From Sinomonas sp. ASV322 (lineage in GTDB: Bacteria > Actinomycetota > Actinomycetes > Actinomycetales > Micrococcaceae): a stretch of DNA of 64,000 bases. Positions 19,389 through 62,664 of this stretch are shown piece after piece. Position numbers and translations under genes: made by a program. The notes beneath the pieces were generated by a model. The model searched no databases and was not told where the DNA came from. It saw nothing but the letters and a program-made list of their open reading frames with translations. Location: the NCBI RefSeq assembly GCF_030908245.1, contig NZ_JAVFJJ010000005.1:124001-188000 (forward strand), in the 5' to 3' direction. The first letter of the stretch is position 1. Each line of letters opens with the position of its first letter.

Positions 19389-20303
19389 ATGACTCAGACC
19401 GTGCTTGTCTTCCTCGATCCCGCTCACCCGGACGGACGCATCGAGGATGCCAGCAAGCCCACGCTCTACGCGACCGACCAGGGCGTGAACCGGGGCGACG
19501 GCGTGTTCGAGACTCTCCTCGTCCTCGACGGGCACGTGCGCAAGCTCCCGGCGCACCTCTCACGGCTCGCCTCGAGCGCCGGGATGATCCACCTCGACGT
19601 GCCCGGCCACGAGCAGTGGGAGCGCGCGATCGTGACGGCGCTCGCCGAGTACCAGCGAACGGTCGGCGTCCTCGACGAGGTCGTCGTGCGGCTCGTCGCG
19701 ACGCGCGGAGTGGAGGGCACGCACGTGCCGACCTGCTGGGTCGCCGCGTTCCCGCCCGCGCACTCGGCGAAGCGACAGCGCGAACACGGCATCGACGTCC
19801 TCCTCCTCGACCGCGGCTACGACTCCGACCTCGCCGAGCGCGCCCCCTGGCTCCTGCTCGGGGCCAAGACGCTCAGCTACGCCGTCAACATGGCGGCCCT
19901 CCGCTTCGCCCACGACCGCGGCGCCGACGACGTCATCTTCACCTCCCGCGATGGCAAGGTCCTCGAGGGCCCCACCTCGACGGTCTTGGTCGCCCATGCG
20001 GAAACGGACGACGCCGGCCGGGTCACCTTCAAGCGGCTCGTGACCCCTGAGCTTGACTCGGGGATCCTGCCGGGCACCTCCCAGGGAGCGCTCTTCGCGG
20101 CGGCCAAGAAGGAAGGATGGGAGCTCGGCTACGGGCCTCTCGAGCCCGACGACCTGTTCGACGCCGACGCCGTGTGGCTCATCTCGTCGGTCCGGCTGCT
20201 CACCCCGGTCAATCACATCGACGGCAAGCCGATCGGCACGAACCCCGCCCTCGTCAAGGCTCTCACCGAGGAGCTCGCGGGGCTCTTCGACCGGATCGCG
20301 TAG
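19389..20303 (+). CDS. Aminodeoxychorismate lyase-like PLP enzyme (class IV aminotransferase)
   Basis: The 304-aa protein belongs to fold-type IV PLP enzymes. It has YATDQGVNRGDGVFETLLVL near the N-terminus, the PLP lysine in LGAKTLSYAVNMAALRFA, and the closing EGPTSTVLVAH and TPELDSGILPGTSQGAL segments that hold cofactor phosphate. Members are PabC lyases, branched-chain aminotransferases or D-amino acid transaminases. The PabB fusion 1.6 kb upstream favours PabC, which would release p-aminobenzoate. Start ATG is chosen over the GTG two codons earlier. The stop is followed at once by a 32-bp repeat array. Confidence 0.88.
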   Translation: MTQTVLVFLDPAHPDGRIEDASKPTLYATDQGVNRGDGVFETLLVLDGHVRKLPAHLSRLASSAGMIHLDVPGHEQWERAIVTALAEYQRTVGVLDEVVVRLVATRGVEGTHVPTCWVAAFPPAHSAKRQREHGIDVLLLDRGYDSDLAERAPWLLLGAKTLSYAVNMAALRFAHDRGADDVIFTSRDGKVLEGPTSTVLVAHAETDDAGRVTFKRLVTPELDSGILPGTSQGALFAAAKKEGWELGYGPLEPDDLFDADAVWLISSVRLLTPVNHIDGKPIGTNPALVKALTEELAGLFDRIA

Positions 20304-20542
20304 CACCGTCCAGGGGTCACCTCCCGCGGGTCCCGCACCGTCCAGGGGTCACCTCCCGCGGGTCCCGCACCATCCAGGGGTCACCTCCCGCGGGTCCCGC
20401 ACCGTTCAGGGGTCACCTCCCGCGGGTCCCGCACCATCCAGGGGTCACCTCCCGCGGGTGTTGAGCGAACGACGACGCCACGCACCCACGGGACGTGACC
20501 CCCAAAGCGCCACGCACCCACGGGACGTGACCCCTGAACGGG
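20304..20542. repeat. 32-bp repeat array A (5 forward + 2 inverted units)
   Basis: The array begins at the base after the lyase stop codon. Five contiguous 32-bp units have the core GGGGTCACCTCCCGCGGGT (starts 20304, 20336, 20368, 20400, 20432). A 15-bp spacer follows, then two 32-bp units in the opposite orientation (20479, 20511). Read on the minus strand these carry GGGGTCACGTCCCGTGGGT. Units have no unique spacers. Inverted units can form CACG-TCC-CGTG. The rest of the 346-nt gap holds the mmsA promoter region. Confidence 0.95.
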
Positions 20543-20649: not shown

Positions 20650-22170
<1,521 letters not shown>

Positions 22171-36543: not shown

Positions 36544-36650
36544 GAGTAACGAGAGCCAGCGCGCGACGGCGGAGCCATCCTTCCCGTCGCACTGCCCTGA
36601 CACGCTGGCCGGCAACCCTCCGCCCGGCGGGGTGCCTCAGGTGACGACTC
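36544..36650 (+). promoter_or_regulatory. SAM-IV riboswitch
   Basis: The leader contains CGCTGGCCGGCAACCCTCC (36603-36621) and GGCGGGGTGCCTCAGGTGA (36626-36644), the most conserved block of the SAM-IV class. GCCAGCG (36555-36561) pairs with CGCTGGC (36603-36609), and GAGT (36544-36547) pairs with ACTC (36647-36650) as the closing stem. SAM-IV riboswitches are known from actinobacteria upstream of methionine or cysteine genes. Here the operon ends in metZ, which fits. Ligand-dependent shut-off at the ribosome site is the likely mode. Confidence 0.88.
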
Positions 36651-36690
36651 GGCATTCGACGATCGATACGCAAGCCCGAAGGAGCCCGCC

Positions 36691-40130: not shown

Positions 40131-40219
40131 GCGCCCCGCCGTCGCCCGCGCCCCGCCGTCACCCGCCGACCCGCCCGCGCCCCGCCGTCGCCCGCCGACC
40201 CGGCCGCGCCCCGCCGTCT
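40131..40219. repeat. Degenerate CGCCCCGCCGTC repeat region
   Basis: CGCCCCGCCGTC occurs four times at uneven spacing up to the stop codon of the ligase gene. It is low-complexity 3' sequence for that minus-strand transcript. With 40008-40104 it fills the 290-nt gap. Confidence 0.6.
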
Positions 40220-41348
40220 ACCGCCGTCGCACGATGCTCAGGGTGGCGCGCGCGCCGTCGTTCCAACTGCCGGTGGGCGAGGCGGTGCGCGAGAGGGCCA
40301 TCTCGACGACGGCGGCGAGCCCGCCCTTGCCCGCCGCTTGGCGCTGGGCCCGCTCCCCGGAGCCCCGCGCGAGGAGCTCGGCGACGGCGAGCTCCGTCCG
40401 CGCATATTCGCCCCCGTCCCGCAGCACGGGCCCGATGTAGGCCATGAGGGCCTCGACCGCGACGCCGGCGGGGACGGGAATGCCCTCGACCGGGTGCACG
40501 AGGTCTCCGTCGAGACCCGAGCGGCTCGCCCTCCACGCGGCGAGGCGCAGGACGGCGACGGGCGTGCCGAGGGGGGCGACGCCGTCGGCCGCCTCACGCG
40601 CGGTCGTCTCGACGAGGGCGCGGACGAGGACGGCGAAGAGCGCCGAATCGCCCGCGACGAGCGGGACATCGGGCACGCGCACCTCGACGGTCGGATGGTT
40701 CCGAGACAGGCGGGCGTCGAAATAGGCCATCGCCTCGTCGAAGATCGAACCCGTCGCGATCATCGCGGCGATCCGCTCGCGGTACGCCGCGGCCCTCCCG
40801 TACAGCTCTTGGGGGCCGGACGAGGGCCAGCGGTTCCACGCCTGGGTGCGGTAGCTCGCGTACCCGGTCGCGTCGCCGAACCAGAACGGCGAGTTCGCGC
40901 TCAAGGCCACGACGAGCGGGAGCCACTCGCGGATCCTGTCGAGCACGGCCACACCCTCGTCCGGTGAGGCGACCCCCACATGCACGTGCAGGCCACACGT
41001 GAGCTGCTCGCGCGACGTGAGGCGGAATTCCTCGGCCATGCGGGCGTAGCGATCGCCGGGCGAGAGGGTCGTCGGGCTGCTCATGGGCGAGGTCGCGAGG
41101 GCGACGACGCGTCCCCCACACCGCCGCGCGGCACGGTCGGCGAGCTGCCGTCCCGCGTAGAGGCACTCGAGCAGCTCGTCGTGATCGCGGCACGGCGGGG
41201 TCTGGACCTCGATCTGCTCGAGCTTGAACTCGCGCACCATGTCGGGCGGCCTGCCCGTGACCGCGAGCATGCGGTCGGCGAGGGCTGCCGGCTGGCCCGT
41301 CGCCGGGTCGACGATGAGCAGCTCTTCCTCCACCCCGAAGGTCCGCAT
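40218..41348 (-). CDS. Carboxylate-amine ligase, GCS2/YbdK family
   Basis: The 376-aa protein begins MRTFGVEEELLIVDPATGQP, the GCS2 signature (G-V-E-E-E). It also has FKLEQIEVQTPPCRDHDEL, the catalytic core HVHVGVASPDEGV, and SRNHPTVEVRVPDVPL. YbdK-type enzymes join a carboxylate and an amine with ATP and are weak glutamate-cysteine ligases. In actinobacteria related genes also act in ergothioneine or other thiol routes, but no such neighbours occur here. It is divergent from the MerR/membrane pair. Confidence 0.9.
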   Translation of the reverse strand: MRTFGVEEELLIVDPATGQPAALADRMLAVTGRPPDMVREFKLEQIEVQTPPCRDHDELLECLYAGRQLADRAARRCGGRVVALATSPMSSPTTLSPGDRYARMAEEFRLTSREQLTCGLHVHVGVASPDEGVAVLDRIREWLPLVVALSANSPFWFGDATGYASYRTQAWNRWPSSGPQELYGRAAAYRERIAAMIATGSIFDEAMAYFDARLSRNHPTVEVRVPDVPLVAGDSALFAVLVRALVETTAREAADGVAPLGTPVAVLRLAAWRASRSGLDGDLVHPVEGIPVPAGVAVEALMAYIGPVLRDGGEYARTELAVAELLARGSGERAQRQAAGKGGLAAVVEMALSRTASPTGSWNDGARATLSIVRRR

Positions 41349-43742: not shown

Positions 43743-44741
<999 letters not shown>

Positions 44742-44762
44742 CCCTCGCGGGCCCCTCCCGTT

Positions 44763-45007
44763 GCGCCGTCACCTCCAGCGGGTGACCAACCGTTCAAGGG
44801 TCACGTTCCGCGGGTCCTCCCGCGTTCAAGGGTCACGTTCCGCGGGTTCCATCCACCGAAGGTGACCCCCAAACGACCGCGCACCCACCGAAGGTGACCC
44901 CTGGACGGAGGCGCACCCACCGAAGGTGACCCCCAAACGACCGCGCACCCACCGAAGGTGACCCCTGGACGGAGGCGCACCCACCGAAGGTGACCCCCAA
45001 ACGACGA
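44763..45007. repeat. 32-bp repeat array B (3 forward + 5 inverted units)
   Basis: Three forward units carry GTCAC at 32-bp spacing (44768, 44800, 44832). The first can form GTCACC-N7-GGTGAC. Five inverted units start at 44851, 44883, 44915, 44947 and 44979, with core ACCCACCGAAGGTGACCCC. They alternate between CCAAACGACCGCGC and CTGGACGGAGGCGC endings, so a 64-bp higher-order repeat is visible. The array lies between convergent genes and ends at a terminator. Confidence 0.95.
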
Positions 45008-45008
45008 C

Positions 45009-45040
45009 GGCGGGCCCGCAGGAAGTCCTGCGGGCCCGCC
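45009..45040. terminator. Strong hairpin terminator
   Basis: GGCGGGCCCGCAGGA (45009-45023) pairs perfectly with TCCTGCGGGCCCGCC (45026-45040). It lies next to repeat array B and about 95 nt after the stop of the minus-strand binding-protein gene. The gap 45041-45135 holds nothing else I can support. Confidence 0.8.
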
Positions 45041-45135
45041 GTGCGGAGGAGGTGCTCGGGCTGAACCTCGCACCCGCCTCTCTATCCCCGGGCAAAGCGG
45101 GAGCTGCGCCCCGGGGGTCCTATGCGGCGACCGGT

Positions 45136-46242
45136 TTAGCCGTCAGAGCCGGCCGGGGTCGTCGTGGGCGTGAGGCCGAGGGTCTTGTTCGCCTCAAGCG
45201 CGTACTTGTTGGTGAACGTGCCGCCGAGCGCGATCTTCGACGTGTCCATGCCGAGCAGGTTCTCCATCGCGCCGATCGTCTTGGGGCCGCCTGCAGGCAT
45301 GATGCCGTCCGGGAGGAACTGGGTCTTATCCTGCTCGAGGGCCTTGACGTAGTCCTCCTTCTTGATGTTCTTGTTCTGCGTGTAGTCGGCCGGCAGCTTG
45401 TCCGCGATCTCCTGCGCGGAGTGCGTGTTGATCCAGTGCATCGTCTCGACGAGGGCGTTGACGACCTTCTGCACCGCGTCCTCGTGCGACTTGACCCAAT
45501 CGGCGTTCGCGATGACGCTTGCCGCGGGCCAGTTGCCGCCGACGGCCTTCGTGGCGCCGTCGGTCGAGGCGAGGTCGATCGCGGACTGCGCGATGCCCTG
45601 GTTCTGCATGGCCACGACCGTCGGCTGGGTCGTCATGACGCAGTCGGCCGCACCGGTCTTGATGGCCGCGATCGCGGTCGCTCCGGCGCCCGCCTTGACG
45701 GTCGTGTAGTCCGACTTCTTGAGGCCCGCCTTCGCCGCGATGAACTGCGTGAGGGAGTCCGTGCCGGAGCCGAGGTCCGTCACGCCCATCTTCTTGCCCT
45801 TGAAGTCGGCGCCTGAGTGGACGCCGGCGTTCGGGTTGCACATGACTCGCTCGCCGGGCGCACCCGAGAGCTGGACGATGTCGATGACGTTCTTGCCCTT
45901 GGACTGGAAGTCGAAGGTGTGGATGTACCACGCGCCGGCCATGTCGACCTGACCGGACGCCATCGCGTCCTCGGCGCCGACGCCGCCCTCGGTCTCGGTC
46001 GAGAGCTCCATGTCCACGCCGTACTTCTTGTACAGGCCAAGCTGCTCGGCGAGCTTGTACGGGAGGTAGATCTGCTTGTCGATGCCGCCGATCATCATCT
46101 TGACGTTCACCGGCGCGGCGTTCGTCGCAGCGCCGCCACTGCTCGAGCCTCCGTTGGCAGCAGGGGTGCTGCTGCCACACGCCGCGAGGCTGAGCGCGAC
46201 CGCGCTCGCAGCGGCGGCGGCAAAGATAGTGCGCTTCATCAT
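45136..46242 (-). CDS. ABC transporter substrate-binding lipoprotein (nitrate/taurine type)
   Basis: The 368-aa protein starts at the ATG after AAAGGATG; an ATG four codons earlier overlaps that ribosome site. The signal peptide ends in LAAC with lipid Cys near residue 22. The NMT1/SsuA-like domain follows: VKMMIGGIDKQIYLPYKLAE and LGLYKKYGVDMELSTETEGG. The ligand-sensing region is GVTDLGSGTDSLTQFIAAKAG. Such proteins bind sulfonates, nitrate, pyrimidine precursors or similar ions outside the cell and feed the permease. It is last in the order ATPase-permease-binding protein. Confidence 0.9.
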   Translation of the reverse strand: MMKRTIFAAAAASAVALSLAACGSSTPAANGGSSSGGAATNAAPVNVKMMIGGIDKQIYLPYKLAEQLGLYKKYGVDMELSTETEGGVGAEDAMASGQVDMAGAWYIHTFDFQSKGKNVIDIVQLSGAPGERVMCNPNAGVHSGADFKGKKMGVTDLGSGTDSLTQFIAAKAGLKKSDYTTVKAGAGATAIAAIKTGAADCVMTTQPTVVAMQNQGIAQSAIDLASTDGATKAVGGNWPAASVIANADWVKSHEDAVQKVVNALVETMHWINTHSAQEIADKLPADYTQNKNIKKEDYVKALEQDKTQFLPDGIMPAGGPKTIGAMENLLGMDTSKIALGGTFTNKYALEANKTLGLTPTTTPAGSDG

Positions 46243-46335
46243 TGTTTTACGCATCCTTTGTTTGATCCACAGGGGAATTGATTGTTTTTGGGTGAGAACG
46301 GATTATCTGCTAGGCGCGAGAACTCTGTTGCGGCA

Positions 46336-47223
46336 TCAGATCGACTGGGCCTCCGAGCGGTTCGGCGGACGCCACTTGAGCAGCTTCTTTTCGAGCAGGC
46401 CGATGAGGTACTCGGCAGAAAGCGTGACGACGGCGATGATGATCATGCACGCGTAGACCGTGTCTGGGTCGAAGCTGCCCTGTGCTTGGCTGATGATGAG
46501 GCCCAGGCCCCTTTGAGCGCCGAGCACCTCGGAGACCAGCGCACCGATGATCGAAAAGCCAAGCGCCGTGTGGAGGCTCGCGATGATCCAGGTCGTCGCG
46601 GACGGGATGGTCACGTGCACCGCCACCTGGAGCGGCGAGGCACCCAGCACCCGCACGTTGGCCACGAGGTTCTGGTCGACCTCTCGAACGCCCTGGAAGG
46701 CGTTGAAGAACACGACGAAGAACACGAGCACGGCCGCGAGGAGGATCTTCGGGAAAATGCCGAGGCCGAACGCGACGACGAAGATCGAGCCGAGCACGAT
46801 GCGGGGAATCGAGTTGACGATGCGGATATACGGACCCACCACCGCCGCAAGATACTTGTTCGAGCCCAGAAGGATCCCCAGAATGGCCCCGGCGAGCGTG
46901 CCGACGATAAAGCCGTACAGGGCTTCCTGCATGGTGACCCAGATGTTCTCCCAGATGGAACCGAATGCGGTTCCCTCGGTGAAGAGCTTGACGAGGCTGT
47001 CCCAGATCTGCGTGGGCTGGCCGAAGAAGAACTTGTCGACCCAACCGACCTCGGTGAACCACTGCCATCCGCCGAACACGATAACGGAGAGCAAGATCCT
47101 TCCGATCCAGACGAGCGTCGTCCTCCGCCGCGCCGCCCGTCGGGCGATCGCCTTCCCGTCGAGCGCCTGAGCTTCGTTGCGCGCATTGCCGTTGCGCGCT
47201 TCTCCGTGCGTGAGAGTTGTCAT
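46336..47223 (-). CDS. ABC transporter permease (SsuC/TauC-like)
   Basis: The 295-aa protein has six spans and the BPD_transp_1 loop (EAA motif) near residue 195: VDQNLVANVRVLGASPLQVAV with the G about 10 residues before the end. It continues HVTIPSATTWIIASLHTALG. It forms the membrane channel of the importer with the adjacent ATPase and lipoprotein. The start overlaps the ATPase stop (ATGA). Confidence 0.92.
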   Translation of the reverse strand: MTTLTHGEARNGNARNEAQALDGKAIARRAARRRTTLVWIGRILLSVIVFGGWQWFTEVGWVDKFFFGQPTQIWDSLVKLFTEGTAFGSIWENIWVTMQEALYGFIVGTLAGAILGILLGSNKYLAAVVGPYIRIVNSIPRIVLGSIFVVAFGLGIFPKILLAAVLVFFVVFFNAFQGVREVDQNLVANVRVLGASPLQVAVHVTIPSATTWIIASLHTALGFSIIGALVSEVLGAQRGLGLIISQAQGSFDPDTVYACMIIIAVVTLSAEYLIGLLEKKLLKWRPPNRSEAQSI

Positions 47224-48071
47224 GCTGCACCTGCCGTTCGCGCGTAGGCGCGGGTCACTTCGTCCTTGAGGGATTCCCAGATCTGTCCTTGGAGTTCGAT
47301 GAAGCGCTGCTCGTGGCGGATCTGCTGGACGTTGCCGCGCGGACGCGGGAGATCGATGTCGAAGACGTCCTTCACGGATCCAGGGCTGCTCGTCATGATG
47401 ACAACGCGGTCCGAGAGCGCGACGGCCTCGTCGAGGTCGTGCGTGATGAAGAGGACCGACGGACGCAGTTCCTCCCAGAGCTGGAGCAGCTCGTTCTGCA
47501 TGATGGCCTTGGTCTGGACGTCGAGCGCGCCGAACGGCTCGTCCATGAGAAGGATCCGCGGGTTGTTGATGAGCGCCGCGGCCATCGCCACGCGCTTGCG
47601 CATGCCGCCCGAGAGCTGGTGCGGGTAGCGGTCCTCAAACCCGGCGAGGCCCACGCGGCGCAGCCAGTCCCTCGCGAGCTCCGTGGCCTCGCGCTTGGGC
47701 ATGCCGACGAGCGTGGGGCCCATCATGACGTTGCTCAGGACGCTCTTCCACGGGAACAGGGCATCGGCCTGGAACATGTAGCTCACGCCGTCCGTGACTC
47801 CGTCGACGACATTGCCGCCCACCTTGACCGAGCCCGCGCTCGGCTTCTCGAGGCCGGACACCTGGGCGAGCGTCGTGGACTTGCCGCAGCCGGTCGGGCC
47901 GACAATCGAGCAGAACTGCCCGGGCTCGATGGTCAGCGTCACATCGCGGATCGCCGTGAACGTCTCGCCCTTCGGCGTGAGGTAGCGCTTGGTCAATCCC
48001 GCGATCTCGATGCGCGCCTGTCCGTCAGCCCCCTCTCGGGCCGCGGGCGGGCGAATTGGATTGTCACCCAT
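47220..48071 (-). CDS. ABC transporter ATP-binding protein (SsuB/TauB-like)
   Basis: The 283-aa protein starts at ATG behind GAGAGG; the open frame extends 27 codons upstream without family similarity. It has Walker A VGPTGCGKSTTLAQVSGLEK, signature PHQLSGGMRKRVAMAAAL, Walker B ILLMDEPFGALD and the switch THDLDEAVALSDRVVIM. It powers the importer encoded downstream. The nitrate/sulfonate/taurine class is indicated by overall pattern, but the ligand is open. Confidence 0.93.
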   Translation of the reverse strand: MGDNPIRPPAAREGADGQARIEIAGLTKRYLTPKGETFTAIRDVTLTIEPGQFCSIVGPTGCGKSTTLAQVSGLEKPSAGSVKVGGNVVDGVTDGVSYMFQADALFPWKSVLSNVMMGPTLVGMPKREATELARDWLRRVGLAGFEDRYPHQLSGGMRKRVAMAAALINNPRILLMDEPFGALDVQTKAIMQNELLQLWEELRPSVLFITHDLDEAVALSDRVVIMTSSPGSVKDVFDIDLPRPRGNVQQIRHEQRFIELQGQIWESLKDEVTRAYARTAGAA

Positions 48072-48382
48072 CTGGGAAGACCTCTCTGTCTTTTCGGGAA
48101 AGACACCTGCGTCTTTCAGTGCAAAAACCTGTGGATTCTGGGCTTCGGGCATTCAGGACCCCGCGAACGGTTCAATCGGACGCCATACGGTTCGTGGCCG
48201 ATGGGAATTTGCCTCGACGTCGCCTTCTGCGGGATCCTTTCTGTATGCCCCGGTGAGCTGAATCACAGTGGCTTCACCAACCATAGAAAGGGCCGCGAAG
48301 ATGCAGCCAGAGTTGCGCGGATTGCGAGGGTTCTTAGCTTTCATTCAGGTTTTGAGCCTTTTGATCGCCCGGTGAGAATCCC
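48072..48382. other. Divergent promoter region, no gene seen
   Basis: The 311-nt gap separates the ABC operon and the two-component genes. It is less GC-rich than its surroundings and holds repeated GTCTTT words near 48090-48115. No clear operator or coding frame could be assigned. Control of the importer by the adjacent response regulator is a fair guess. Confidence 0.5.
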
Positions 48383-50005
48383 GTGAATCTCGGTCGTTGG
48401 TGGCGCGCTCGGCCACTCGCTTCACAGATCCTCGTGTGGACCCTGTGCATCCTTCTCCTCACCGTGGCGCTCGGCGGCTTCGTGACGAGCCGGATCGTGC
48501 GGCAGACGCTCGACGACCAGTACCGCCTGCGCGCCCTGGGCATCGCGACGACCGTTGCGCAGATGCCGGAGATCGCGACCGATCTCGAAACCGGCGATCC
48601 GTCCAAGCGCATCCAGGCCATCGCCGAGGAGGTCCGGATCCAGGCGCACCCCGACTACGTCGTCGTCGCCGACCGCAACGGCATCCGCTTCTCCCACCCC
48701 AACCCCGCGCTCATCGGGAAGGCACTCGAAGAACCGGTGGCCGCGCTCGACGGGGAGACGCACGTGGGCACGGACCCGGGCAGCCTCGGGGTGTCCGCGA
48801 ATGCCAAGGCCCCCATTCGCGACGCCGAAGGAAACATCGTCGGCCAGGTCTCCGTGGGCATCCTCGAGGCTGCGGTGGACACGGCGATCGGCGAGGAGGC
48901 CGGCCTCATCGTCGGCTACTCGGCACTCGTCCTGCTCATCGGCACGGCGAGTTCCGTGCTGCTCGCGCGGGCCATCAAGCGGGCCACCTTCGGACTCGAG
49001 CCGGCTGAGATCAGCTCGCTCCTCCAGGACCGGGAGGCGCTCCTCCATGGAATCCGCGAGGCGATGATCGGGCTCGACGACGACCACCGCATCACGGTCA
49101 TCAACAACGAGGCCCGGCACCTGCTCGGCGTCGAGGGCAACGCGCTCGGCCAGCCCATCGAAGAAGTCCTGCCCGCCGGTCGCCTGCTGGACATCCTCAC
49201 GGGCAAGGCCGAGGGCGCGGACCAGACGGTGCTGACCGAGGACGCGCTCCTCGTGGCCAACCGCATGCCGGTGAGCGTCGGCGGGCGGAGCGTCGGCGCC
49301 GTCGTCACCCTTCGCGACCGCACCGAAGTCGAGGCGCTCGTCCGCGACCTCCGGTCGACTGAGGGGCTCATCCAGGCCCTCAGGGCCCAAGAGCACGAGT
49401 ACGCGAATCGCCTTCACGTCGTGAGCGGGCTGCTCGACCTCGGCGACGTCGACCAGGCGAGGACGTTCATCTCCGGTGTCTCGGACACGTCCCGATCGCT
49501 CGGCGAAGGCCTTCGCGCACGCGTCGAGCCGCCCGAGCTCGCCGCGCTCATCCTCGCCAAGATCACGATCGCGGGAGAGCAGGACATCAACCTGTCCATC
49601 ACCGACGATTCCCGCCTTCGCCAGCCATTCCTCGGCACCCAGGATCTGCTCACGATCGTCGGCAACCTCCTCGACAATGCGATGGACGCCGTCGTCCCCC
49701 AGCCCGAGCCTCGCAGCGTCACGCTCCAGCTCGACGACTCGTCCGGCATCTTCATCTCGGTGACGGACAGCGGGCCGGGCGTGCCCGCCGAGGCGATCGA
49801 CGACGTCGTCCGCGACGGCTACACGACAAAGCCGGTCAAGCCAGGCAAGCGGCCCGATCTGCGCCGCGGGATCGGCCTCGCGCTCGTCGCGCGGATCGTC
49901 CACCGGGCTGGTGGCACGATGGACGTGTTCGCGGGCCCGGGCGGACGGTTCGAAGTATGGATTCCGGTGCCCGCATCGGTGAGTGAAGGAGTGGTTCAGG
50001 GATGA
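48383..50005 (+). CDS. Sensor histidine kinase, CitA/DcuS-like
   Basis: The 540-aa protein starts at GTG. A first span (ILVWTLCILLLTVALGGFVT) is followed by an extracytoplasmic sensor domain of about 140 aa (DYVVVADRNGIRFSHPNP and VSANAKAPIRDAEGNIVGQV, the CitA-type PAS). A second span (GYSALVLLIGTASSVLL), a cytoplasmic PAS, the phospho-acceptor His in ALRAQEHEYANRLHVVSGLL, and the ATPase with NLLDNAMDAV and GIGLALVARIV follow. This family senses citrate or C4-dicarboxylates. It overlaps the response regulator gene (ATGA). Confidence 0.93.
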   Translation: MNLGRWWRARPLASQILVWTLCILLLTVALGGFVTSRIVRQTLDDQYRLRALGIATTVAQMPEIATDLETGDPSKRIQAIAEEVRIQAHPDYVVVADRNGIRFSHPNPALIGKALEEPVAALDGETHVGTDPGSLGVSANAKAPIRDAEGNIVGQVSVGILEAAVDTAIGEEAGLIVGYSALVLLIGTASSVLLARAIKRATFGLEPAEISSLLQDREALLHGIREAMIGLDDDHRITVINNEARHLLGVEGNALGQPIEEVLPAGRLLDILTGKAEGADQTVLTEDALLVANRMPVSVGGRSVGAVVTLRDRTEVEALVRDLRSTEGLIQALRAQEHEYANRLHVVSGLLDLGDVDQARTFISGVSDTSRSLGEGLRARVEPPELAALILAKITIAGEQDINLSITDDSRLRQPFLGTQDLLTIVGNLLDNAMDAVVPQPEPRSVTLQLDDSSGIFISVTDSGPGVPAEAIDDVVRDGYTTKPVKPGKRPDLRRGIGLALVARIVHRAGGTMDVFAGPGGRFEVWIPVPASVSEGVVQG

Positions 50006-50676
50006 TCCGGACCCTCGTAGTCGACGACGACTACCGGGTAGCGCGCATCCACGCGACCCATGTGGCCCGCGTGGCCGGCTACGAATGCATCGGCGAGGCG
50101 CATTCGGCGGTTGAGGCGCGCGCCGCCGTCGCCCGCCTCAAGCCCGATCTCCTGCTCCTCGACGTGTATCTCCCGGACGAAGACGGGATCGCGCTCCTCC
50201 GCTCCCTGCGCGAGTCGGGCGAGGACGTCGACGCCATCATCATCACGGCGGCGCGCGACGTCGCGACCGTGCGTGCCGCGATGCGCAGCGGCGCCGTCTA
50301 CTACCTCGTGAAGCCGTTCACGTTCGACCAGCTCACGATCCAGCTCGAGGCCTACCGGCGGTGGCGCGCAGAGACGGAGTCGCGGCATATCTCGGGGCAG
50401 ACCGACGTCGACGCCCTCTTCGCCTCGCGCCACGCCCCCGCGCCCAAAGCGAGCGCCCGGACCCTCCCGCCCACGATGCAGAAGGTGCTCGACGCCGTCC
50501 GCGCGGCGGAGCGCCCGCTCGGAGCCCAGGACGTCTCGGACCTCATCGGCATCTCTCGGCCGACCGCGCAGCGGTACCTGAGCGAGCTCGAGCGGAAGGG
50601 CCGGCTCGAGCTGCGGCTCGAGTACGGGACTACGGGACGGCCGGTCAACACGTACACGGTGCGTGCGGGTATCTAA
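50002..50676 (+). CDS. Response regulator, CitB/DcuR-like
   Basis: The 224-aa protein has a receiver domain with Asp in KPDLLLLDVYLPDEDGIAL, Thr-like in AIIITAARDVATVRAAM and Lys in YYLVKPFTFDQLTIQLEAYR. The C-terminal HTH is of the CitB/DcuR type (LGAQDVSDLIGISRPTAQRY). It is phosphorylated by the coupled kinase and activates transporter genes in its family. Its stop is 8 nt before repeat array C. The best local target candidates are the divergent ABC genes. Confidence 0.93.
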   Translation: MIRTLVVDDDYRVARIHATHVARVAGYECIGEAHSAVEARAAVARLKPDLLLLDVYLPDEDGIALLRSLRESGEDVDAIIITAARDVATVRAAMRSGAVYYLVKPFTFDQLTIQLEAYRRWRAETESRHISGQTDVDALFASRHAPAPKASARTLPPTMQKVLDAVRAAERPLGAQDVSDLIGISRPTAQRYLSELERKGRLELRLEYGTTGRPVNTYTVRAGI

Positions 50677-50684
50677 CCGTCTGG

Positions 50685-50978
50685 GGGTCACCTCCCGCGG
50701 GTGCCCGCGCATCCAAGGGTCACCTCCCGCGGGTGCCCGCGCATCCAAGGGTCACCTCCCGCGGGTGCCCGCGCATCCAAGGGTCACCTCCCGCGGGTGC
50801 CCGCGCATCCAAAGGTCACCTCCCGCGGGTGGTGAGCGCACGACGACGACGCGCACCCACCGAAGGTGACCCCCAAAACCCCGCGCACCCACCGAAGGTG
50901 ACCCCCAAAACCCCGCGCACCCACCGAAGGTGACCCCCAAAACCCCGCGCACCCACAGAAGGTGACCCCTGAACGGCT
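50685..50978. repeat. 32-bp repeat array C (5 forward + 4 inverted units)
   Basis: Five forward units start at 50685, 50717, 50749, 50781 and 50813 with core GGGTCACCTCCCGCGGGTG and spacing of exactly 32 bp. After a 20-bp spacer, four inverted 32-bp units start at 50851, 50883, 50915 and 50947 with core CACCCACCGAAGGTGACCC. The array fills the gap between convergent genes. Each inverted unit contains CACC-GAA-GGTG and each forward unit can pair CACC with GGTG across 7 nt. Confidence 0.97.
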
Positions 50979-50982
50979 TGCC

Positions 50983-51492
50983 CTACGCGAGGCTCCGCTG
51001 GAACAAGAACGTGTCGATCCACCGCCCGCGCTTGTAGCCGACGCCGCTCAGGTGCCCGGCGTTCGCGAATCCCAGGCGCTCGTGCAGCCGAGCCGAGGGT
51101 CCGGTCGCGGAGTCGGCGATGACGGCGATCATCTCGCGCATTCCAGCGCGGGCCGAGTGCGCGACAAGCTCCCCGAGCAGGACGGTGCCCCAGCCGCGCC
51201 CGCCCGCGTCGGGCGCGAGGTAGATCGTGTCCTCGACGGTGTGCCGGTAGGCGGGCTTGGCGCGCCACGGAGCGGCGTAGGCGAAGCCGCGCACCGACCC
51301 GGCGTGGTCGGCGACGAGGAACGGAAGGCCCAACGCCGCCAGATCGCCGAGCTTTCGCTCCCAGGCGTCGACGGTCCACGGGACCTCTTCGAACGTCGCG
51401 ACCGTGTTGAGCACGTAGTGCTCGTAGATTCCGGCCACGTCCGCGAGATCCTCCGGGCCAGCTGGCCGGATGTCGAGCTGATCCGATGTCAC
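50983..51492 (-). CDS. GNAT-family N-acetyltransferase (phosphinothricin acetyltransferase-like)
   Basis: The 169-aa protein starts at GTG. The family pattern of bar/pat-type enzymes is visible: DIRPAGPEDLADVAGIYEHYV at the start, GFAYAAPWRAKPAYRHTVEDTIYL-like centre, acetyl-CoA loop YLAPDAGGRGWGTVLLGELV and LHERLGFANAGHLSGVGYKR. It acetylates an amine, possibly methionine sulfoximine or phosphinothricin analogues or amino acids. It is the last gene of an operon with the aminotransferase and EamA exporter. Confidence 0.92.
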   Translation of the reverse strand: MTSDQLDIRPAGPEDLADVAGIYEHYVLNTVATFEEVPWTVDAWERKLGDLAALGLPFLVADHAGSVRGFAYAAPWRAKPAYRHTVEDTIYLAPDAGGRGWGTVLLGELVAHSARAGMREMIAVIADSATGPSARLHERLGFANAGHLSGVGYKRGRWIDTFLFQRSLA

Positions 51493-62569: not shown

Positions 62570-62582
62570 CCCGCGCCTTTAC

Positions 62583-62664
62583 ACCCACCCCGCCACCCAT
62601 ACCCACCCCCGCCACCCATACCCACCCCCGCCACCCACACCCACCCCCGCCACCCACACCCACC
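62583..62664. repeat. 19-bp C-rich tandem repeat
   Basis: ACCCACCCCCGCCACCCAT (last base T or C) is repeated four times (62583, 62601, 62620, 62639; the first lacks one C) plus a partial copy. It lies between dehydrogenase and transporter genes, within the transcribed leader of the latter if the operon continues. Confidence 0.85.

Follow-up and report, generated by a model that had tools for sequence, protein, structure and literature searches.

Mirrored arrays of 32-bp units behind stop codons in Sinomonas: hints of a gene-boundary system not yet described, or of a repeat that spreads by itself

What kind of element are the repeat arrays that stand behind genes in Sinomonas sp. ASV322, and what could their mirrored layout do there? 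The window, meaning the whole stretch of 64,000 nucleotides that was analysed, had been reported in a preliminary description to hold three gaps with repeats running in one orientation and then in the other, and three such arrays (A, B and C) were present at those places. A search for the core GGTCACNTNNNGNGGGT, one mismatch being allowed, gave 24 matches in the window, all of them within arrays A to C, against 0.39 expected from shuffles. The arrays and their neighbours are listed below, the genes having been called with our own codon-usage script and not with an established annotator.

19389-20303, +: left neighbour gene of array A; the first array head lies 3 nt past its TAG
20307..20459, +: left half of array A, five + units with cores at 20315, 20347, 20379, 20411 and 20443
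20460..20483, no strand: centre of array A, similar to the centre of array C, of the GGTGAGCG.ACGACGACG type
20484..20540, -: right half of array A, two - units (cores 20484-20500 and 20516-20532) plus an outer head
20650-22170, +: right neighbour gene of array A, co-directional
44759..44847, +: left half of array B, three + units, the first of which, CGTTGCGCCGTCACCTCCAGCGGGT, is deviant
44851..45005, -: right half of array B, five - units with a 64-bp super-period, two unit types alternating
45009..45040, no strand: G+C-rich hairpin of ordinary type, lying between array B and its right neighbour gene
45136-46242, -: right neighbour gene of array B
50002-50676, +: left neighbour gene of array C; the array head lies 1 nt past its TAA
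50678..50830, +: left half of array C, five + units with cores from 50686 to 50830
50831..50854, no strand: centre of array C
50855..50975, -: right half of array C, four - units plus an outer head
50983-51492, -: right neighbour gene of array C, convergent, its end 7 nt beyond the array

The + and - units number 5 and 2 in array A, which bears out the two inverted units previously reported for it, 3 and 5 in array B, and 5 and 4 in array C. One mismatch occurs in the first + unit of array B, which is similar to solitary pairs in relatives, and one in one of its five - units. From the last + core to the first - core there are 24 nt in arrays A and C and 3 nt in array B. The left edge, taken at the start of the CGT head, lies 3 nt (TAG), 17 nt (TGA) and 1 nt (TAA) past the stop codon in A, B and C; the proposed closeness to the stop codon was right, and the range of 1 to about 25 nt given for it is corrected to these values. 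Two unrelated tandem repeats are also found in the window (62581-62664, 19 bp x4.5, and 40143-40226, 29 bp x2.9). An Rfam search of positions 19000-52500 at the gathering score gave no match in the arrays, its sole match being a SAM-IV riboswitch outside them (36545-36682, +; RF00634, 51.7 bits, cut-off 38).

Each 32-bp unit consists of a polar conserved motif of about 25 nt (CGTYYRGGGGTCACSTYCSGYGGGT) followed by about 7 nt of free sequence. In 195 distinct 41-mers the conserved part read CGTYYRGGGGTCACSTYCSGYGGGTG, where 12 core letters appear fixed because the search pattern imposes them, and the head was C in 90%, G in 77% and T in 95%, followed by T (61%) or C (37%). Positions 11 and 13 inside the unit were linked (0/1000 shuffles). 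The 7 nt that directly follow the core differed by 0.36 of 7 letters within arrays and by 4.35 of 7 between arrays, letter composition alone predicting about 4.2, whereas the step between units was constant: among consecutive same-strand cores at most 70 bp apart, 114 of the 123 steps of 30-33 bp measured exactly 32 bp, and 10 further steps measured 51, 63 or 64 bp. The spacer is therefore constrained in length and free in its letters, and since it is nearly identical within arrays and nearly unrelated between them, the 32-bp period described earlier stands but the absence of spacers does not quite. A CRISPR-like nature was rejected, because within any one array the sequence separating the motifs hardly varies.

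The core occurs 231 times exactly (107 forward, 124 reverse) in the 4.34-Mb, 33-contig genome, and the reversed pattern not once. The 224 exact units that were analysed, the other seven lying outside the stretches examined, formed 56 clusters, of which 27 ran + then -, one ran +-+-+-, and 28 had exact cores in a single orientation. All 28 two-orientation clusters begin with + and finish with -, and none of the 56 begins with - and turns to +, indicating that the mirrored arrangement is inherent in the element and is not set by the genes; the idea that orientation follows the genes also failed in 19 co-directional gaps, where 39 units were sense and 31 antisense. The innermost arms were 3-5 nt apart in 13 of the 28 two-orientation elements and 35, 36, 67 or 99 nt apart in eight more, so that 21 of 28 show a gap of 3-5 nt, or of 3-4 nt plus a multiple of 32, suggesting a basic element of two arms set tail to tail, each of which has grown on its own. 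Contigs C4, C10 and C14 start inside motif I arrays (L033, L041 and L072), so that some of the array content is hidden by assembly breaks. A four-unit array at the terminus of contig C11 lies 0.33 kb from a partial gene (L043, 6155-6979, -) which we take, by eye, to be transposase-like.

Placement at gene 3' ends, first suggested by the three arrays, held throughout the genome. Forty-eight clusters lie free between two called genes (five that overlap gene calls and three at contig ends were left out): 26 in convergent gaps, 10 in ++, 9 in -- and 3 in divergent ones. Of the 252 gaps that are 60 bp or longer and hold no array, 38 were convergent and 83 divergent, so that clusters were enriched in convergent gaps (Fisher p = 3e-8) and depleted in divergent ones (Fisher p = 8e-5), although divergent gaps are mostly of the same length as the others. 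The facing stop codon was a median of 15 nt from the nearest core and at most 25 nt away in 28 of the 45 clusters in convergent or co-directional gaps. Preference for gene ends over gene interiors was likewise confirmed: of the five clusters that overlap gene calls, only the lone 17-mer at L080 is plainly intragenic (1/56), the other four falling in low-scoring calls or in the 3' part of a call.

Related species share this layout but differ in the sequence of the repeat. Three motifs, I (GGTCACNTNNNGNGGGT), II (CGTYTCGGGTACANNNA) and III (CGTTGCGGGGTCNC), all with a CGTY head, were counted as exact matches in 15 genomes of the genus, motif II having emerged as intergenic words that were enriched in samples of 340 kb from G001 and from G014. 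The counts of motifs I, II and III, in this order, were:

G000 (window genome): 231, 0, 0
G001: 0, 173, 75
G002: 29, 1, 0
G003: 4, 1, 2
G004: 34, 0, 10
G005: 28, 8, 18
G006: 63, 13, 15
G007: 1, 37, 0
G008 (S. humi): 42, 36, 0
G009: 0, 0, 85
G010: 1, 0, 5
G011: 8, 0, 34
G012: 10, 0, 39
G013: 0, 52, 1
G014: 2, 84, 2

Control patterns for each motif gave 0 or 1 per genus genome. Outside the genus, motif II occurred as a single copy in each of six of 380 genomes, and motif I mostly 0 to 3 times per genome, as did its control, with maxima in G390 (8), G234 (7) and G200 (5).

Motif II forms mirrored arrays with a 31-bp step, and its free flanked clusters in the stretches of G001, G014 and G013 were convergent in nine of 11 cases (two of the nine lying in one gap) and never divergent, against a background of 63/424. 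Arrays of motif III (CGTTGCGGGGTC) have a 22-bp step in G001 (L160, L161, L166 and L167) and a 21-bp step in G009 (L205); in the small sample of four G001 clusters one was convergent, two were -- and one was divergent. A 14-bp-step version of motif I is found in G006, a genome in which nine of 16 clusters were convergent and none divergent (background gaps, 6 and 21 of 71) and two of 16 ran in the order - then +. Steps of 32 bp recur in S. humi, with the head CGTTTGTT, and in two Arthrobacter species, with the head CGGACGCCC. A contig scan for paired cores, restricted to steps of 30-33 bp and possibly omitting records very near the window, found 16 stretches, nine in S. humi, five in A. alkaliphilus and two in A. 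bambusae; Micrococcaceae, the family proposed earlier, is consistent with Sinomonas and Arthrobacter as the named relatives. A very long one-orientation array, with 30 exact + cores in about 1.1 kb, was seen in A. alkaliphilus (L105, 5655-6720).

The - units of motif I (e.g. 44851-45005) read AGGTGACC, and in G006 AGGAGGTGACC, a near-perfect Shine-Dalgarno sequence, and the + units resemble the 3' end of 16S rRNA; this likeness is probably a coincidence, since it is absent from motifs II and III. Species dialects and inverted pairs at gene ends are also features of the DNA uptake sequences of Neisseria, and the arrays might accordingly be read as uptake or species-recognition sequences. Uptake sequences reach densities far above 231 per 4.3 Mb, however, and the units here are both sparse and clumped in tandem arrays, which makes such a role very improbable.

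Another reading takes the mirrored pair as an RNA hairpin, a terminator-like or mRNA-stabilising stem of convergent genes, with tandem growth being functionless replication slippage. Full mirrored arrays folded far more strongly than shuffles, on both strands (z -3.0 to -16.8, five strands), but nine single units from five dialects folded like shuffles (z -2.1 to +1.6), half arrays gave z from -4.6 to -0.2, and the right half of array C was at chance level. Evolution preserving the stems was rejected in the arrays, as the arms do not co-vary: 82.4 agreements were expected among 140 comparisons of variable letters and 79 were observed, a figure equalled or exceeded in 4040 of 5000 shuffles. Taken together, the lack of co-variation and the shuffle-like folding of units mean that pairing alone leaves the conserved letters unexplained, and a step that stays constant while the spacers are unrelated is not accounted for by slippage alone. 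As for a standard terminator, a scan of 44700-51000 for G+C-rich hairpins followed by a T run found none inside arrays B or C, and a further perfect hairpin was present in four of 26 array-bearing and three of 38 array-free convergent gaps; neither result favours taking the arrays for such terminators. Solitary pairs speak for the hairpin, intergenic hairpins with GTCA[CG] in both arms making up 14/74 in G000 (one unrelated), 1/36 in G001, 5/29 in G014 and 6/20 in G006, with none in G013 (0/19), G007 (0/19), G009 (0/26) or G012 (0/16); this survey demanded good pairing and is hence unusable as a test of stem-preserving evolution. On the whole we consider the hairpin reading possible, though rather unlikely.

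Orthologous gene ends bear both on the hairpin and on a third explanation, that of a REP-like parasite, copied by an enzyme and tolerated without host function past stop codons, where it is least harmful. On the 3' side of aceE in the window genome an array comes first and an ordinary hairpin after it, and G001, G008 and G007, whose AceE part (499 aa) is 90%, 92% and 92% identical to that of the window genome, have in the same place, no more than about 15 nt from the stop, one hairpin each, akin in sequence but not identical (GGTCAGCTCCCGTGGGT, GGTCAGCTCCGCAGG and CCGTCAGCTTTGCAGGGT), as the hairpin reading would have it; G001 carries an additional 22-bp motif III array there. Between ettA and tesB the array of the window genome stands between an ordinary ettA hairpin and tesB; G001 has the ordinary hairpin without an array, despite a 99% identical EttA, and G014 has a mirrored pair of different sequence. 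No array was found in G014 following the orthologue of array A's left gene or that of either gene of array B, the latter two keeping an ordinary hairpin, which for the right gene is similar to that in the window, and at the orthologue of the L086 array G014 has a solitary motif-I-like pair. The comparison indicates that some sites are common to species and were amplified in only one, and the ordinary hairpins beside the arrays at aceE, ettA and array B show that the arrays need not be terminators.

An ettA gap with an array in the window genome and without one in G001, beside EttA proteins 99% identical, fits a selfish repeat, as does a motif I copy number ranging from 0 to 231 within one genus. 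Spacers, moreover, matched the local upstream flank in 2.65 of 7 letters, slightly above the 2.27 of 7 expected by chance (p = 0.012 with 40 clean arrays; p = 0.0004 with all 47, before unit-like upstream flanks were removed), as if the arrays had grown in place. The enzyme expected of a REP system of the GTAG type did not turn up, however: the RAYT transposase (Y1_Tnp, PF01797) was found in none of the 15 genus genomes by a search that was positive in five of 14 control genomes, and REPs with a RAYT were therefore ruled out. No target-site duplication was noticed by eye. A phage or plasmid origin was rejected as well, array C being unmatched in phages and plasmids and the tandem pattern in IMG/VR. 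The strong avoidance of divergent gaps also speaks against a selfish repeat, although harm to promoters could account for it. A purely selfish repeat seems to us unlikely.

Our preferred reading, to which we give a tentative probability of about 0.45, is that the arrays belong to a BIME-like family of polar sites that are recognised and form a two-way boundary at transcript ends. The layout, the 3'-end placement, the fixed step with free spacer and the species-specific motifs are observed directly. Arrays A, B and C would then be loci of a dispersed family operating like the BIMEs of E. coli, which are mosaics of REP units. Its basic element would be two polar units of about 25 nt whose tails face each other, usually at a distance of 3-4 nt, just past a stop codon and most often between convergent genes. 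Its units would have multiplied at the 32-bp step, independently on each side, with a unit sequence proper to each species. Each unit may be recognised by a putative sequence-specific partner, DNA- or RNA-binding, as suggested by a conservation that neither unit folding nor arm pairing explains, and the mirrored array may stop or insulate transcription arriving from either side, as suggested by elements that abut stop codons and favour convergent gaps. Relief of supercoils, as proposed for REPs and gyrase, would be an alternative role.

Some of the data fit the boundary reading loosely. For the phased protein sites suggested earlier the spacings give a divided picture: steps of 32, 31, 22 and 21 bp come close to whole turns of the helix, but those of 14 bp (G006), 17 bp (the distance between hits in S. 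humi and G007) and two of 15 bp (G001) do not. The - then + clusters of G006 (2/16) and the motif III clusters of G001 (1/4 convergent) count against a strict boundary layout, and the strong folding of full mirrored arrays is equally consistent with a hairpin. A bolder version, in which each Sinomonas species has a sequence-specific protein that blocks polymerases from both sides at polar, evenly stepped, mirrored sites past stop codons, would be a boundary system new to bacteria, with protein and sites changing together so that the architecture is kept and the motif swapped genome-wide among species; we hold it to be distinctly doubtful.

One mirrored fixed-step architecture past stop codons appears with clearly different motifs within a single genus, and the contrast between 231 copies of motif I and none of motif II in the window genome and 0 and 173 in G001 amounts to a natural experiment on the upkeep of REP-like repeats. 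Should the dialect be set by a trans factor, the 15 genomes would be expected to vary in gene content in step with their motifs. The contrast thereby opens to testing the long-standing problem of why repeats persist at bacterial gene ends. Arrays of this kind would further be candidates for two-way boundaries in high-GC hosts.

Among known systems, TRIT, the mycobacterial terminator motif, is a sequence-conserved 3'-end element of Actinobacteria that forms a hairpin downstream of the stop codon, and the Sal-box arrays of TTF-I are protein roadblock terminators, with polar repeated sites behind the transcription unit. With such roadblocks (review, PMC10310618) the Sinomonas arrays are compared in layout only. 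Clustered-hairpin intrinsic terminators also lie downstream of stop codons, but in the part of the account drawn on here they are hairpins, not mirrored in-register arrays with species dialects (PMC8355165). The TAACTGA heptamer arrays of Beggiatoaceae are similar in being many intergenic direct-repeat arrays for which a trans factor has been proposed; unlike those of Sinomonas they are described, in the sections considered, as 7-bp units upstream of start codons, in 169 direct sets and one indirect, and not as mirrored at 3' ends (PMC4679880).

A search of mostly open-access literature listed no publication with such arrays described in its title or abstract, which is weak evidence of absence. 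The statement that no described family has this layout holds for the exact layout in the literature searched, but much of the behaviour is shared with REPs and BIMEs, whose GTAG and CGTC super-families were treated by Di Nocera et al. (2013; PMC3733652). In the parts of that paper used here, the repeats are dispersed, and their polar units carry GTAG or CGTC as a terminal tetranucleotide tag, the latter resembled by the CGTY head of motifs I to III, in place of which the two Arthrobacter species have CGGACGCCC; they stand mostly in inverted pairs, located in convergent and co-directional gaps, as are 45 of our 48 free clusters, and often no more than 20 bp from the stop; CGTC repeats likewise have no dedicated transposase (PMC3733652). 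Neither "actinobacteria" nor "arthrobacter" occurs in its main text. Single REP units are palindromic, with CGTC stems of 8-9 bp and loops of 4-5, whereas in Sinomonas only the mirrored pair is, the nine single units folding like shuffles; clusters of CGTC repeats are rare, and the description given there of that family contains no in-register tandem arrays (PMC3733652). E. coli REPs are gyrase targets that may relieve supercoils at ORF ends (PMC3733652), which would also suit the convergent gaps seen here. The Sinomonas arrays, then, are not REPs by their units, but they behave like the BIMEs of E. coli.
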